Assembly (NCBI GenBank): GCA_003117195.1
Contig: BDSI01000029.1
Location: 1,092,196-1,156,195 of the forward strand
DNA from: Eudorina sp. 2006-703-Eu-15
Taxonomy: Eukaryota; Chlorophyta; Chlorophyceae; Chlamydomonadales; Volvocaceae
Length of the DNA stretch: 64,000 nucleotides
Direction of reading: 5' to 3'
Shown here: positions 407 to 32,100 of the stretch, piece after piece
How the letters are laid out: every line of letters begins with the position of its first letter
Position numbering within the stretch: position 1 is the first letter of the stretch
Made by a program: the position numbers and the translations under genes
The notes under the pieces: model-generated
Database searches by the model: none
What the model saw: the letters and a program-made list of their open reading frames with translations, nothing else
What the model was told of the DNA's origin: nothing

Positions 407-3400
407 CTCCCCCGAACCTGGCGTCACACAGCCTGCACGCCAGGGTGATGTCCCGTATGGGCGCCCCGTCCCGGGCCAGCACCTCGGCGCAGCTGCGGAT
501 GGCGGTGCCGGAGGGGGGCTGGGCGTGCAGCGCGTCGTGCAGCGTGGTGTTGGAGAGGGAGATCACGGTGGCCTGGGGGGGCCGGGGGCGGGGAGGGTAT
601 AGGAAATTGGTAGGCATATTTATACCGGGGCGGGGGGCGGGGAGGGGGGGCGGGGCGGGGCGGGGGGCGGGAGGGGGCGGCAAAGGAGATAAGAAATCAG
701 TATACATGATGAGGGGGGCAGCAGGGAGCGGGCGGGGTAGATGTGTGTAGCGCATACGAGCACATGCATGAAAGGACGTGCCCCTCGACGAACACATTCC
801 CCTCCCTGGCCCCCAGGCACCCTTCATCGCCGGTCAGATGGTACCCAGCGGGGGGAGGAGAGCAGTGTCCGGGCCCGGCGCTGGGCCGCTGAAGGACTTC
901 AGGGGTCGGGGTCGGGGTCGGGGAGGGGCGTGGTTGGATGAAGAAGAGGGGCGATGATTCTTCGCCGCCGACAGCCTATGTACCCCTCCGCTCTCCCCGC
1001 TTTCCTCTCTCTTCCCCGCTCCCCCTCCCAGCCTGCCAGGCTCAGCCCCCCTCACCTTCACGCTGGTGGACATGGTTTCGGAGACGAAACCCATCAGGTT
1101 GTCAGGATCCTGGATGATACACCAGGGCCGGACGGCGACGGGATGGAGAGGTAAGGGGTCCAGGGCAATGGAGAGGGAAACAATTATTCTGTGGTGTATG
1201 TAGGGGGGAGGCCCGGGCCAAGTGGACCGGCAGATGGGCACACACACCATCTTCCTATCGGCATCCTCTACCGAGTGTCCCGGCGCTAACCCTGACCCTG
1301 CCCACAACTCCTGGATTTGCCCTGCTTATTCTGTAGTCATGGAGTTCTGGCAGCGGGTGGCCAGTTTCGCAGAACTGGGCCGACCGCGACGGGGATGGGA
1401 GGGGGTGGGACCGGACCACCCAATCCTATCGGTGGTGGACGGCCGGATCCGCTGCGTGCAGCCAGTAGACGTAGACTCTTGATGGATAGATAGCAGCGCG
1501 AGGCGCTAGGGTGTAGGGATTGGTACAAGGGAAGCCCACTTCCGGGCACGATGGAGATCCGTGGGTGCCCGAGGAGGGTAGGGCCAGACCAGTGGGAGTT
1601 GGCAGCGGGACTTGTAGGCGAGGGTCGCGAGCGACGGGAAGGGGTGTACGACAGGGAAGCTTACGTGGTGATGTGCTGCCTTGTGCAAACCATAGCCCCA
1701 TCATGGAGCGCCCGACTGCATACCCGGACCCAGCAAGGCCTGACGTGTGCGAGACGCCTCGCTCTGGCTCAGCTGGGCGGGCAGGCCTGCCGGATGGTGC
1801 AGCCTTAGCTAGTACGATTAGGTTGGGGCGCGAGATCAGGCTAGTTTTACCGCACCGGGCAGGGGCGCGGCTCCGAATTGCTGAGGACCGCGCCCTGGGT
1901 GCTGCAAGGACTTGAGGAGGTTGAACAGCGGACTGCAAGGCGCAGACCGCCCGGGATGGGCTTCTGCCCATTCCCTTGAGGGGGCACAGCTGTCACCGAT
2001 CCTCAGGGATCGGGCGAGCGCCCTTGGTTGAGAGCGAGGGGACAGAGGCCCCTTACGCCCCCCTCCGCCGTATCCGGGGGAGAGTGCTTCGGCGGTCTCC
2101 CGTATGGGGCGGGTTAGCGCCCCCGGCCAGCGTCGGCCCGGCAGATATGTAACGATACACACACACACACGGCTCAGCTTTTCTCCATGCTAACACACAC
2201 ACACACGGACATACACACACACGGACATACACACATACGGACATACCCCCCACCACGCACCTCCACCCCCGCCCCCGTGTCCACCCCCTCGTCTGCCATC
2301 GCACGTGCATTCCCTCCCTCATGTCGCGCGCCTCCCCCCCCCAGACCGATGCCCCTCATGCATGGTGGCATCCTGTCCACGGCCGGGTTTGTGGGGAGTC
2401 ATTTCTTCCTGGCCCGCTACCCGGTTCGTCATTTGCCCTTGCACCGGTCTCGTTCCTTCTGTGTTGTTTGCACCCCTACTTTGTCCGGCGTCGTCTCTAC
2501 CTGCCGTACTTTTCACGTACACTCCTTCCCATATATTCGGTGCGACGCGCCGTCGCGTTCTTACGCCGCGCCACCACCATAGTTACATCCCACATAGCTT
2601 CTGCTTTGTTGCTTTATTTGTTTTCCTTTGCCAATCCTTACATCCGCTTCCCTGTTCTCGCCTTGCATGCGCTCCATCGCCCACATCGTTACCTCGCTAC
2701 GGCGTTCTTCCCCGTATATAAAGGTAACATTTCCGTTCCGTCCGTCCGTTTTCCATAGTGTACTGTTGCTACGCCCGTGCTTGCGCTGCGCCCTGGTGGT
2801 GGCGCGGTCGTCTTGCTCGCCTGCCATGTTTGTCTTGTTGCCTTGTCCATGGTAAGTAAATCGCAGGTATTTGTTAGTATCCGGATCTGGGCGGTTATGG
2901 GTGGGCTTCTTCTTAAACACATGGACATACACACCTGCAGGGGCACACTCCGGGTGGTCCTCATCTGCGACTGACTGCGCGTCTTCCGACCCAGCAGCAC
3001 CGCCGACAGCCCGTGCAGACTGGACGACACGCCGCCGCCGCCGCCGCCGGCCCCTCCCGCGCCGCCGCCGCCGTGGCCGCCGCCAGAGCCTCCGCCCCCC
3101 GCCGATGTGTTGCTCAGGTTGGCCTGCAGCAGCGCCGTAGCGCTTGGTATCCCCGCCCCCGCCCCCGGGCCCATGGCTGCACCGCCCACCCCCGCGTGCT
3201 GGCTCCCGCTGAGACGGGTGGCGCCCGCACCCACACCCGCACCAAGACCAGCTCCTCCCGCCGCCGCTGCCGCCGCCGCTGCCCCCGCATGAATGGTCGC
3301 GTGCCGCTGTTGTGACGCCATGTCCCTCTGGGACAGGGCCCGGCCCTGCACCGACATGTGTGTCCCCCCGCCGCCCCCCGCCATGGCGGCCCGGGCCGTG

Positions 3401-29100: not shown

Positions 29101-32100
29101 TGGTGGACGGGCGCCTGCTGTGCGCACAGCCCATTGGGCTGGGAGATGGAGGGGAAGTGGAATAGGCGAGGGTCTGGGTTGGGAGCGGATTGGTGGTAGG
29201 GAAGGGAGGGGTAAGGCCGCCTAGTCGCAGGCAGAGCCACCGCGGGGGTGACGGGAGGGCCTTTTATCGAGAGGCCGCTGGTGTAGGGTCTAGGAGGAGT
29301 CGCAGGCGAAGGAGTTGGTTGTTGTACGGGCTGGGCGCACTGCGTGAGCTGAGCCGGTGTGGTGCTGCCTCGAGGCGTCCCTAGCCCCGCCGGTGAGCTG
29401 GTAGCTGTTAGCCTAGTCCGTGACCCCCCTGCCGCGTGCGCCCGAGAGGTGGTCCCAGAGCGCTCTCTTGCCTGAGGCCCGCTCGCAGATCCCGCGTGCA
29501 TGCGAGCGCCGAGCGATGGCTGGGGGGCCTTCCTTTTAGCTAGAGGGGATGGGGATGGGCGTGGGTTCTGGTTGTTCCTGGGCTTCGTAGCAGACCCCCT
29601 ACCCGAAAGCCGGATCAGGCCGGGGCTGTAGAGAAGTCTTGTTTGCCTACCGTTTTCAGGCTCCGTGCACGGACCCGCGTGCATGATGCAGCCTTGACTT
29701 GTGAGAGCGCGCGAACGGCACCACCTCCCTTCCCCAGAGGAGGGAGAGGGACCCTAGCGGACCTGCAGCTCTCGGTTGCTTAGGAGGGGGTAGTGGCCCC
29801 TCGCGCCCCTATCCCGCCCGCGGGAGAGAGCTCAGGCGGTCTTTCCGTTGGGGCTGGGCAACAGCCCCTGGCCACGCCAGGCCCGGTCAGATACTTGTAA
29901 CGACACACACACATAGTGTAATAATAACACATAATGTAATAATAACACATATATGTAATAATGATAATAATAACAATATATTAATATATATTATGATATA
30001 TTATATAAAATTTTTATTTTATATATATTATGTAAAGTTATATTACATAATATATTAGATATTTATAAAAAAAATAATTTAATACAATATAATATAATAT
30101 AATAAAAAATATAATAATAACACATATATGTAATAATAACACATAGTGCAAACCATAGCCCCATCATGGAGCGCCCGACTGCATACCCGGACCCAGCAAG
30201 GCCTGACGTGTGCGAGATGCCTCGCTCTGGCTCAGCTGGGCAGGCAGGCCTGCCGGATGGTGCAACCTTAGCTAGCACGATTAGGTTGGGACGCGGGACC
30301 AGGCTAATCTTACCGCACCATGCAGGGGCGCGTCTCCGAATTGCTGAGGAACGCGCCCCGGATGCTGCAAGGACTTGAGGAGGTTGAACAGCGGACTGCA
30401 AGGCGCAGACCGCCCGGGATGGGCTTCTGCCCATTCCCTTGAGGGGGCACAGCTGTCACCGATCCTCAGGGATCGGGCGAGCGCCCTTGGTTGAGAGCGA
30501 GGGGACAGAGGCCCCTTACGCCCCTTACCGCCGTATCCGGGGGAGAGTGCTTCGGCGGTCTCCCGTATGGGGCGGGTTAGCGCCCCCGGCCAGCGTCGGC
30601 CCGGCAGATATGTAACGATTCACACACACACGGACTTATACACACACAGAGTGTGTGTGCGTGTGTCCCCGCTGCCTCTCCTGGTCCCCGCTGCCCCCCG
30701 CTGCTACCTCCGCTCCCCCCCCCTTCCCCCGCCCCAGCTGCTGTCCCGGTCCTGGAGCCGGCTCAACGACATCTACATCCTGGGCGCCATCACACTGCGC
30801 CGCTCCGCCGGACTGCTGTTCAGCCGCCTGGCGCACCTGGACCTCTTCAACCAGGTGGGGGCTTGGGGGCTGAGGGAGGGGACCGGCCCAGAGGGTCATG
30901 GAGACGCGTGCAGGGGGATGCAGGGGGCCGCAGAAGGGTCTAGGGTTGGTTTGTCAGGATAAGGAACGGCTTGTCAGCGTACGGCACGGTATGGGGGTTG
31001 GGGTCAGGCCAACCCTGGGGCCCGACATGAGGGGCGGGAGGGATGTCCTGATCGCGATCGTGATGTGGGGGAAAGAAGCGGCCGTTGGGGTTGGGGAATG
31101 GACACGGCACGCAACGGACATGCGCAGTGGAAAACTGACCCCGGTAGCCCGTTGGGGCGCTGCTGCTGCTGCTGCTGCTGCCGCTGCCGCAGACCGCCTC
31201 GGCGCCGTACAGGCTGCAGCTGCAGCACCTGCCGCCCTCCCTGAGGGCGCTGGGTGTCCAGAACTCGGTGCTGGAGGGGGCGGACAGGGCGGGCCAACTT
31301 AAGGTAATGGATCTGTATCTAGATCTGGATCTGGGCTTCTGGGGTTTAAAAAAACGCCCAGACACACCCAGCCCGGCGACAAATACTGACCAACGATAAT
31401 CACCGGTACCTGCAAGGCAAAGGAGGAAACGCAGGCCAAAGCAAAGAAGCCGCGCCACCACCGGCGGCGCCATGCAAGTGCAAAAAAAACCGAAAGAGCA
31501 TCATGCAACCAAAACCCAACCCGGAATGATTACCTGTAATGAAGAGCACCAAATTGAAGACCAGCAGCCAGAGCGGGCGAAATGGAAAGGGGAAGACGAA
31601 TTTGAAGTGAGGAACGACCAAGCAAAACAAAATGACAGTGCAATACAGCAGAGAGGGCAAAAACACATGAAGCGAACCGGTGGTGGCGCGGCGGAAGAGA
31701 ACAGAGCATGCAACCGCAGAGGTTATGAAATGTGGGTTGTGTACGACCGGTACGGGGAGTGTACGACATGTACGGCAGCGGGTATGGCAGCGGGCTTCTG
31801 GGGTGTTGTTAGGGCCAATGTCGGAAGGTTGGGGGGTACGGAGCAGGGGGCGCATGCGGGGGGCCGGGGGGCTATAGGAAATTGGTAGACATTTTCAATT
31901 GCGCTGCTGGCGGGGGCCTGGGGGTGAGGGTGGGGCAGCAGCCCCGACGGACTGGGGAGGAGGGGAGATTGGGGGCCTGAGCAGCAGCCTGCTGGGTTGG
32001 GGGAGAGGAGAGAGGGAGCTCGTGCAGGGGCTTGGTTGGGCGTGGGGTCAGGTGCACTGAGTACGAGGCTCTGGTGCTGTACCTGCCGCAGTCTGTCCTG

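Follow-up and report, generated by a model that had tools for sequence, protein, structure and literature searches.

Among the 15 green-algal families of L1-type long interspersed elements (LINEs) in the excerpted text of Ohshima 2013 (PMC3747384), eight have 3' repeats other than poly(A), and (CA)n is one of these. The same excerpts describe the pair SINEX-3_CR / L1-1_CR of Chlamydomonas reinhardtii, in which a tRNA-derived short interspersed element (SINE) carries about 80 nt of the 3' end of an L1 LINE. Clustered L1-type elements are represented by Zepp of Chlorella and ZeppL of Chlamydomonas and Eudorina (PMC8226300, in extract). Target-specific LINEs include those with an apurinic/apyrimidinic endonuclease (APE) in the Tx1 and R1 clades and the microsatellite-specific HERO and Togen, the latter with (TG)n (PMC4640811, likewise in extract). 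Here, we analyzed a stretch of 64,000 nt from the green alga Eudorina sp. 2006-703-Eu-15 (contig BDSI01000029.1, positions 1,092,196 to 1,156,195; hereafter the window), and searched the genome it belongs to (181 Mb, 3,033 contigs). Its repeated pieces very probably stem from an L1-type LINE which carries a (CA)n tail and prefers (CA)n targets, its own earlier tails included. Elsewhere in green algae, Zepp inserts into its own copies, and Chlamys-type Penelope-like elements (PLEs) have an insertion bias towards microsatellites. The latter have a different reverse transcriptase (RT) and a GIY-YIG endonuclease, whereas the element described here has a predicted APE endonuclease and an L1-like RT.

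The Eudorina element resembles the green-algal L1s of PMC3747384 in its type, its (CA)n 3' end and its algal host; for those L1s the excerpts give the 3' repeat only, while the preference for CA targets and the self-nesting belong to the present element. The published SINE/L1 pair has a counterpart in a SINE-like unit and an L1 with a common 3' end. However, according to the same excerpts SINEX-3_CR and L1-1_CR end in poly(A), the present units carry (CA)n there, and their end is shared by another, third unit whose frame resembles open reading frame 1 (ORF1-like). Zepp and ZeppL are, as far as the extracts go, also L1-type and also clustered, but Zepp and L1-1_CR are given as (A)n (PMC3747384) and the tail here is (CA)n, so a poly(A) tail does not characterize this element. 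With HERO and Togen it has a repeated target in common, for Togen a dinucleotide repeat; in the extracts, the groups to which HERO and the NeSL-related Togen are assigned have a restriction-like endonuclease, in contrast to an APE-type, L1-like element whose preference has exceptions. CA tails and L1/SINE 3'-end pairs of green algae are in print, and no report of an algal L1 targeting CA was found in the open-licence PMC literature; we therefore consider the element a new variant of known ones. One dinucleotide repeat seems to serve both as tail and as target, while many retroelements do just one of these. This would give a LINE a simple route to make its own landing sites, seed microsatellites and build nested arrays.

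The window holds five pieces (copies A to E, Table 1) which, judged by their sequence, are 5'-truncated copies of an L1-type retrotransposon without long terminal repeats (non-LTR) of a volvocine-like green alga. A sequence-only reading of the window had guessed at a Penelope-like or non-LTR element and proposed to extend the copies 5'. The extension leads into an open frame ending ...VQPVDVDS about 0.6-0.7 kb before the 3' end; this frame, ORF2, contains a predicted APE-type endonuclease and an L1-like RT. Searching the genome for the protein yielded at least 151 matches, a lower bound as 150 of 494 first-look candidates were scored, and the match at C7:1148093 falls within a 1,485-aa open frame. 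The translated copies show a C-terminal Cys/His stretch and RT-like motifs. PF03372 and PF00078 are both present in database relatives, of which the named ones come from Tetrabaena socialis and Volvox africanus ('LINE-1 reverse transcriptase Tetrabaena socialis', 60%). PF03372 is above cut-off in relatives P0001, P0002 and P0010, and just under it in P0008 (24.4 vs 24.5 bits). In the genome itself, two different copies searched apart gave the first and the second part of the endonuclease domain above cut-off, namely PF03372 profile positions 1-84 in fetched locus L059 (7e-08) and 127-225 in L010 (2e-05), and RVT_1 was found in copy L041 (4e-31). When the 72%-identical relative P0001 was used as query, the closest solved structures in PDB were those of human L1 ORF2p (2e-43). 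The same search gave 8gh6, 'Reverse transcriptase-like protein' (4e-23), which we take to be R2, and R2-named entries (1e-18). By these matches, the predicted RT is closest to L1 among LINE RTs. Furthermore, the copies have one 3' end in common and are truncated at variable 5' points, as is typical of the L1 type. The non-LTR part of the earlier guess therefore stands, and the Penelope-like part is rejected on the domain content (APE endonuclease and L1-like RT, not GIY-YIG and PLE-type RT). A DNA transposon was also rejected, because the copies are part of LINE coding sequence; terminal inverted repeats were not searched for.

All five copies with a common 3' end and (CA)n, as first described, are present, with slightly corrected boundaries. 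Copy A had been placed from 1404, but starts at 1335; its positions 1335-1500 and the end of ORF2 in a genomic copy are identical at 165/166 sites. Copy B lies at about 5094-5650, and its BLAST match extends to 5655, into CA. The 16-nt 3' end GCAGATATGTAACGAT is exact at 2141-2156 (+), 18526-18541 (-), 18698-18713 (-) and 30604-30619 (+), and the copy at 5094 has the variant end GGCAGATTACAAACACACACACA, so that the notion of one end or a close variant resolves into four exact ends and one variant. At up to three mismatches the window contains five matches to GCAGATATGTAACGAT, a number reached by 0/100 shuffles (mean 0.16). The fifth, a two-mismatch match at 9889 (+), was taken as chance, as it has no BLAST match and the sequence upstream of it is unrelated. 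On the element strand, (CA)n follows the 3' end in 5/5 copies and adjoins the 5' end in 3/5 (near 5650, 18592 and 19130), both in agreement with the sequence-only reading. Copies C and D are arranged as one copy sitting in the tail of another.

The same 3' end recurs throughout the genome. The exact 16-mer occurs 566 times on the forward and 515 times on the reverse strand (reversed-pattern control: 0 and 0), and 756 and 708 times at up to two mismatches (control: 8 and 7). CACACACA lies 0-4 nt after the 16-mer in 460 of the 566 exact forward matches, which include units other than the L1; the reverse-strand count of CACACACA, inflated by double counting, was not used. An alternating CA run of at least 5 nt starts within the first 5 nt after 46 of 47 listed 3' ends, and a TG start was seen in 0/47. 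The sole exception, L027 5148, reads TCACTCTCTCTCACACAC. These 47 ends mix L1, SINE-like and ORF1-like units, and some come from overlapping loci. Among 100 listed places, neighbors were on the same strand in 22/22 cases within 3 kb and in 23/24 within 6.5 kb. Genome-wide there are 2,182 forward CA tracts with 8 or more units and a non-A base in front (the reversed control matches CA tracts too and is uninformative), and 358 such stretches on the forward strand lie within 0-4 nt after GTAACGAT. Approximately 15% of the long forward CA tracts in the genome would then sit behind an element 3' end, the two patterns not being exactly nested.

CA also precedes most of the 5' ends, and in one orientation. 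Of 50 hand-screened junctions, 33 have a CA run of at least 8 nt on the element strand ending no more than 15 nt from the 5' break (36 at a cut-off of 6 nt, 28 at 10 nt and 26 at 12 nt), and TG was found in 0/50 at each cut-off. As a comparison, 283, 142 and 123 of 20,000 random window positions, on both strands, have CA at 6, 8 and 10 nt. The junctions derive from 74 automatic rows, 27 of which were removed by hand: 7 SINE-like boundaries, 4 ORF1-unit boundaries, 8 internal breaks, 2 low-similarity matches, and 6 rows repeating a site in overlapping loci or duplicated blocks. Two of the 47 kept rows had their start moved by hand (L011 453 and L027 7792). Three junctions were added by hand (window 18592, a 68-bp copy in L027, and the L010 5' end, on the assumption that the element continues as far as the CA); excluding them, 30/47 have CA of at least 8 nt. 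The sample is not random, as it comes from the first listed contigs and the protein search, and array members are not independent. In L014, L017, L018, L020, L025, L044 and L047 the left flank beyond the 5' CA is, by eye, not this element. Other copies sit in tails of other repeat families (F2 to F4, see below), with L022 in F3, L021 and L024 in F4, and L009 2073 in F2.

One potential explanation is repair-driven insertion, in which the RT would prime from breaks at fragile CA/TG tracts without any specificity of the endonuclease. CA tracts can form unusual DNA structures, and nothing here shows the endonuclease cutting CA/TG. Nevertheless, the one-sided orientation (TG 0/50) and the predicted APE domain would fit a strand-specific nick and tail pairing more simply, and we consider the repair-driven route unlikely.

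Preferential insertion into (CA)n, own tails included, is also suggested by a filled/empty pair of loci, L015 and L016. Both are on the same contig, separated by ~15 kb. They align at 99.985% identity for 6,646 bp, as far as a resident 403-bp copy and partly into its tail; a further alignment of 975 bp (99.5%) comprises the L1 end, the tail and the right flank. The resident tail of L015 has 67 nt of uninterrupted CA, with further CA behind it. In L016, an additional 467-bp copy in the same orientation breaks this tail after 11 nt of CA. It extends 64 bp further 5' than the resident, and is therefore not a duplicate of it. L016 has in total 15 nt more CA than L015 (11 + 71 vs 67), compatible with a target-site duplication, a tail or slippage. 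If L015 reflects the earlier state, the additional copy would have entered the tail of the resident one.

Alternatively, (CA)n could be the element's own tail only, like the poly(A) of other LINEs, with random targets and with the 5' CA derived from tandem duplication or from neighboring tails. This would agree with the (AC)7 of copy A in a site without CA in paralogues (see below), with the duplicated blocks in arrays (L009/L010, L011, L013), and with the TAA(CA)n ends of other families. It agrees poorly with the 5' CA beside the seven non-element left flanks named above, with a constant CA orientation (TG 0/50, random expectation below 1%), and with the additional L016 copy lying in what is, in L015, an unbroken CA tract. 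We thus regard random targeting with a CA tail as quite unlikely.

That a preference for CA targets is combined with a tail is indicated by copy A. This copy interrupts the 3' end of repeat family F3, at a position where the compared paralogues have no CA. It is flanked by TGCCCTGCTTATTC then TGT on the left, and by (AC)7 then GGCTCAGCTTTTCTCC on the right. Uninterrupted F3 copies (L022, L025 and the window copy at 17.8 kb) run across this site without CA, and the joined flanks of copy A match them across the site. The left flank alone is not significant against F3 (37-44 of 200 shuffles reach the score); the case for the tail rests on the left-flank match because it is placed beside the right-flank match, adjoining it with 13/14 bases in L022 and 10/10 in the window 17.8-kb copy. 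Going by these paralogues, copy A's own F3 probably had no CA before the insertion, and it seems that copy A inserted where there was no CA and supplied the (AC)7 itself. Copy A shows no target-site duplication. Among 5'/3' CA lengths (in nt), those of L014 (14/68), L017 (9/57), L018 (8/58), L020 (24/49), L022 (12/64) and L024 (13/67) are longer on the 3' side. That (CA)n is a target only, with a tailless element and a pre-existing microsatellite as 3' CA, would suit the (CACACG)n 3' repeat and CGCA-rich 5' flank of L019 and the imperfect CA arrays in L013 and L028, where it looks as if the local target followed the 3' end, but it is very improbable given 3' tracts that are often much longer than the 5' ones (as in L014, L017 and L024, unlike L025 and L021), CA in copy A where paralogues have none, and the (CA)n 3' repeats of green-algal L1 families in the excerpts of PMC3747384. 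The sequence-only reading had set a (CA)n target against a (CA)n tail; each is supported, and the evidence favors both together.

Target-primed insertion with 5' truncation, as proposed earlier, fits these observations well. At its 3' end, the element RNA probably has a recognition module, in many cases a hairpin and then a core of ~73 nt ending in GCAGATATGTAACGAT, plus a (CA)n tail. The APE-type endonuclease would preferentially nick the TG strand within (CA)n tracts, and the freed (TG)n end could pair with the (CA)n tail of the RNA and prime reverse transcription. Copying would often stop early, resulting in 5' truncation, and the second end would join inside the same CA tract. As each insertion would carry or leave a (CA)n tail, and thus a new landing site, same-strand arrays could grow. 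The SINE-like and the ORF1-like unit probably use the same machinery via the shared 3' module.

This module is observed in units with different bodies, which share their last 73-100 nt with the L1. The last 73 nt are nearly identical over 17 aligned rows of the three classes (L1, SINE-like and ORF1-like unit). In L013, a tRNA-like stretch heads the SINE-like body (29.1-33.9 bits, gathering 29) and is directly preceded by a tRNA-Glu (63.5 bits); the unit is likely a tRNA-derived SINE. This tRNA-Glu is not common to any other fetched copy, and there was no match by Rfam in L010 and L028, or by ARAGORN in L010, L028, L027, L049 and L006. The ORF1-like unit (L011, L027) has its last 100 nt in common with the L1. 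Its protein matched no Pfam family, and neither did its relative P0121. It has two database relatives, one with 67% over 50% of the query and one with 33% over 8%, located on contigs of 2,388 and 2,460 bases, approximately the size of the unit. Possibly, this unit is an ORF1-only partner, and ORF1 may be supplied in trans by it. Just before the shared core, many copies could fold into a hairpin with a 4-nt loop, whose stem reaches 10 bp in the L1, 9 in the ORF1-like and 6 in the SINE-like unit; the stem sequences differ among the three classes. Of 21 distinct stretches, 14 have it by a perfect-stem rule, one of these being one base off. Having several unit classes with one 3' module makes 3'-end recognition in algal L1s directly testable.

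Three more repeat families, F2, F3 and F4, end in TAA(CA)n. CACACA was found within 14 nt in 3/5 matches of F2, 6/6 of F3 and 3/4 of F4 (up to 3 mismatches, duplicated blocks included), and several of these tails act as L1 landing sites. We tentatively suggest, as a possibility on the doubtful side, that (CA)n is a transmissible common address, which several classes (the L1, the SINE-like unit, the ORF1-like-frame unit and other families ending ...TAA(CA)n) carry as a tail and land in, each other's tails included, so that the repeat and the retroelements would spread together.

Several points weigh against an L1 that carries (CA)n and prefers it as target. At the 5' side, 17 of 50 junctions fail the 8-nt rule. 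Four of these look like boundary placement (L015, L021, L027 7134 and L049), three are near short or related repeats (L019, L031 and L033 92), and no CA adjoins the other ten (L009 7036, L023, L026, L033 361, L050, L052, L055, L057, and window 1335 and 30146). Because of these ten, we read (CA)n as a preferred target and the targeting as not absolute. At the 3' side, 106 of the 566 exact forward ends have no CACACACA within 0-4 nt; these were read in part, and none of all the ends read genome-wide belongs to a copy ending in another sequence, an outcome which the sequence-only reading had named as a refutation. The CA is not longer on the 3' side in L025 (10/7) and L021 (7/6), and the same-strand clustering is partly due to tandem duplication. 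There is just one filled/empty pair, in which loss of a copy in L015 via recombination between CA tracts may have occurred and would look identical, or an assembly fault may be involved. None of the fetched loci has a whole element: the longest copy spans three adjoining loci and has a frame break, and the L010 copy is interrupted. Regarding the module, the SINE assignment comes from the single locus L013, and 7/21 stretches are without a perfect hairpin, including copies A and E and two broken copies. Moreover, whole 100-nt 3' ends fold little better than shuffles (z 0.10, -1.82, -1.24 and -2.68 for four sequences).

Table 1. Coordinates of element copies, CA tracts and related repeats, in the window unless a fetched locus (L) is given
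Feature	Location	Strand	Remarks
Copy A	1335..2156	+	last ~820 bp of L1-like element (ORF2 end and 3' region), 5'-truncated
(AC)7 tail of copy A	2157..2170	+	missing from uninterrupted F3 copies compared
Imperfect CA tract	5078..5092	-	after 3' end of copy B
Copy B	5094..5650	-	5'-truncated, variant 3' end, ~93% identity to copy A
(CA)n (TG on +)	5651..5698	-	immediately upstream of 5' break of copy B
F3 3' end (GCTTATTCGCGGCTCAGCTTTTCTTCTTGATAA), uninterrupted	17809..17841	-	then long (CA)n; paralogous empty site compared with copy A
(CA)n after copy C	18445..18524	-	
Copy C	18526..18592	-	67 bp, 3' core only, (CA)n flanking both sides
(CA)n	18593..18696	-	between copy D 3' end and copy C 5' end
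Copy D	18698..19130	-	~431 bp, (CA)n flanking both sides
Diverged fragment	29063..29131	+	78% match to ORF2 end, (CA)n directly 5'
Copy E	30146..30619	+	~463 bp; AT-rich 5' flank (...TAATAATAACACATA); T(CA)n on 3' side
T plus CA tract	30620..30631	+	after copy E
Tandem array of ~1,150-bp unit	L013 4003-7994		three complete tRNA-Glu(CTC) genes, SINE-like body and other repeats
578-aa ORF1-like frame	L011 2547-4283 and 6210-7945; L027 5569-6553		in ~2.4-kb unit with L1 3' end
F2, F3 and F4 families	L009, L013, L022, L025, L010, L011, L021, L024; window 17809-17841 (-)		three repeat families ending TAA(CA)n: F2 end ...CTCGGTTTATTTTAA; F3 end ...CTTTTCTCCTTGATAA; F4 end ...CACCCCCAACCATGTAA

Further observations concern other elements and single copies. 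F4 copies with short (CA)n or CAACAA tails lie inside L1 ORF2 (L010, + strand, around 4304; L011, around 1179), and apparently hit non-CA targets. In L042, around 1402, this L1 gives way, by eye, to a diverged L1 inside the RT region (FADD), and the copy is a possible recombinant. A different, second LINE RT fragment is present at L012 3242-4099 (+), with ~31% to this ORF2 and RVT_1 just under cut-off (1.3e-06). Directly after (CA)n, a 204-aa fragment (FTKRFLDDLASLNN...) occurs twice in the same array, at L009 1484-2095 (-) and 3683-4294 (-). It is a different element from the L1 and presumably resembles a Penelope-type RT. The fragment itself had no Pfam match; among its 13 relatives, which include proteins of Chlamydomonas reinhardtii and Pleodorina starrii, six have PF26215, and one has a weak RVT_1 (E 0.029, under cut-off). 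At L009 7036 (- orientation), the 5' end of an L1 copy adjoins CCTAAACCCTAAACCCTA, which we take to be a telomere-like repeat, behind a C-rich stretch.

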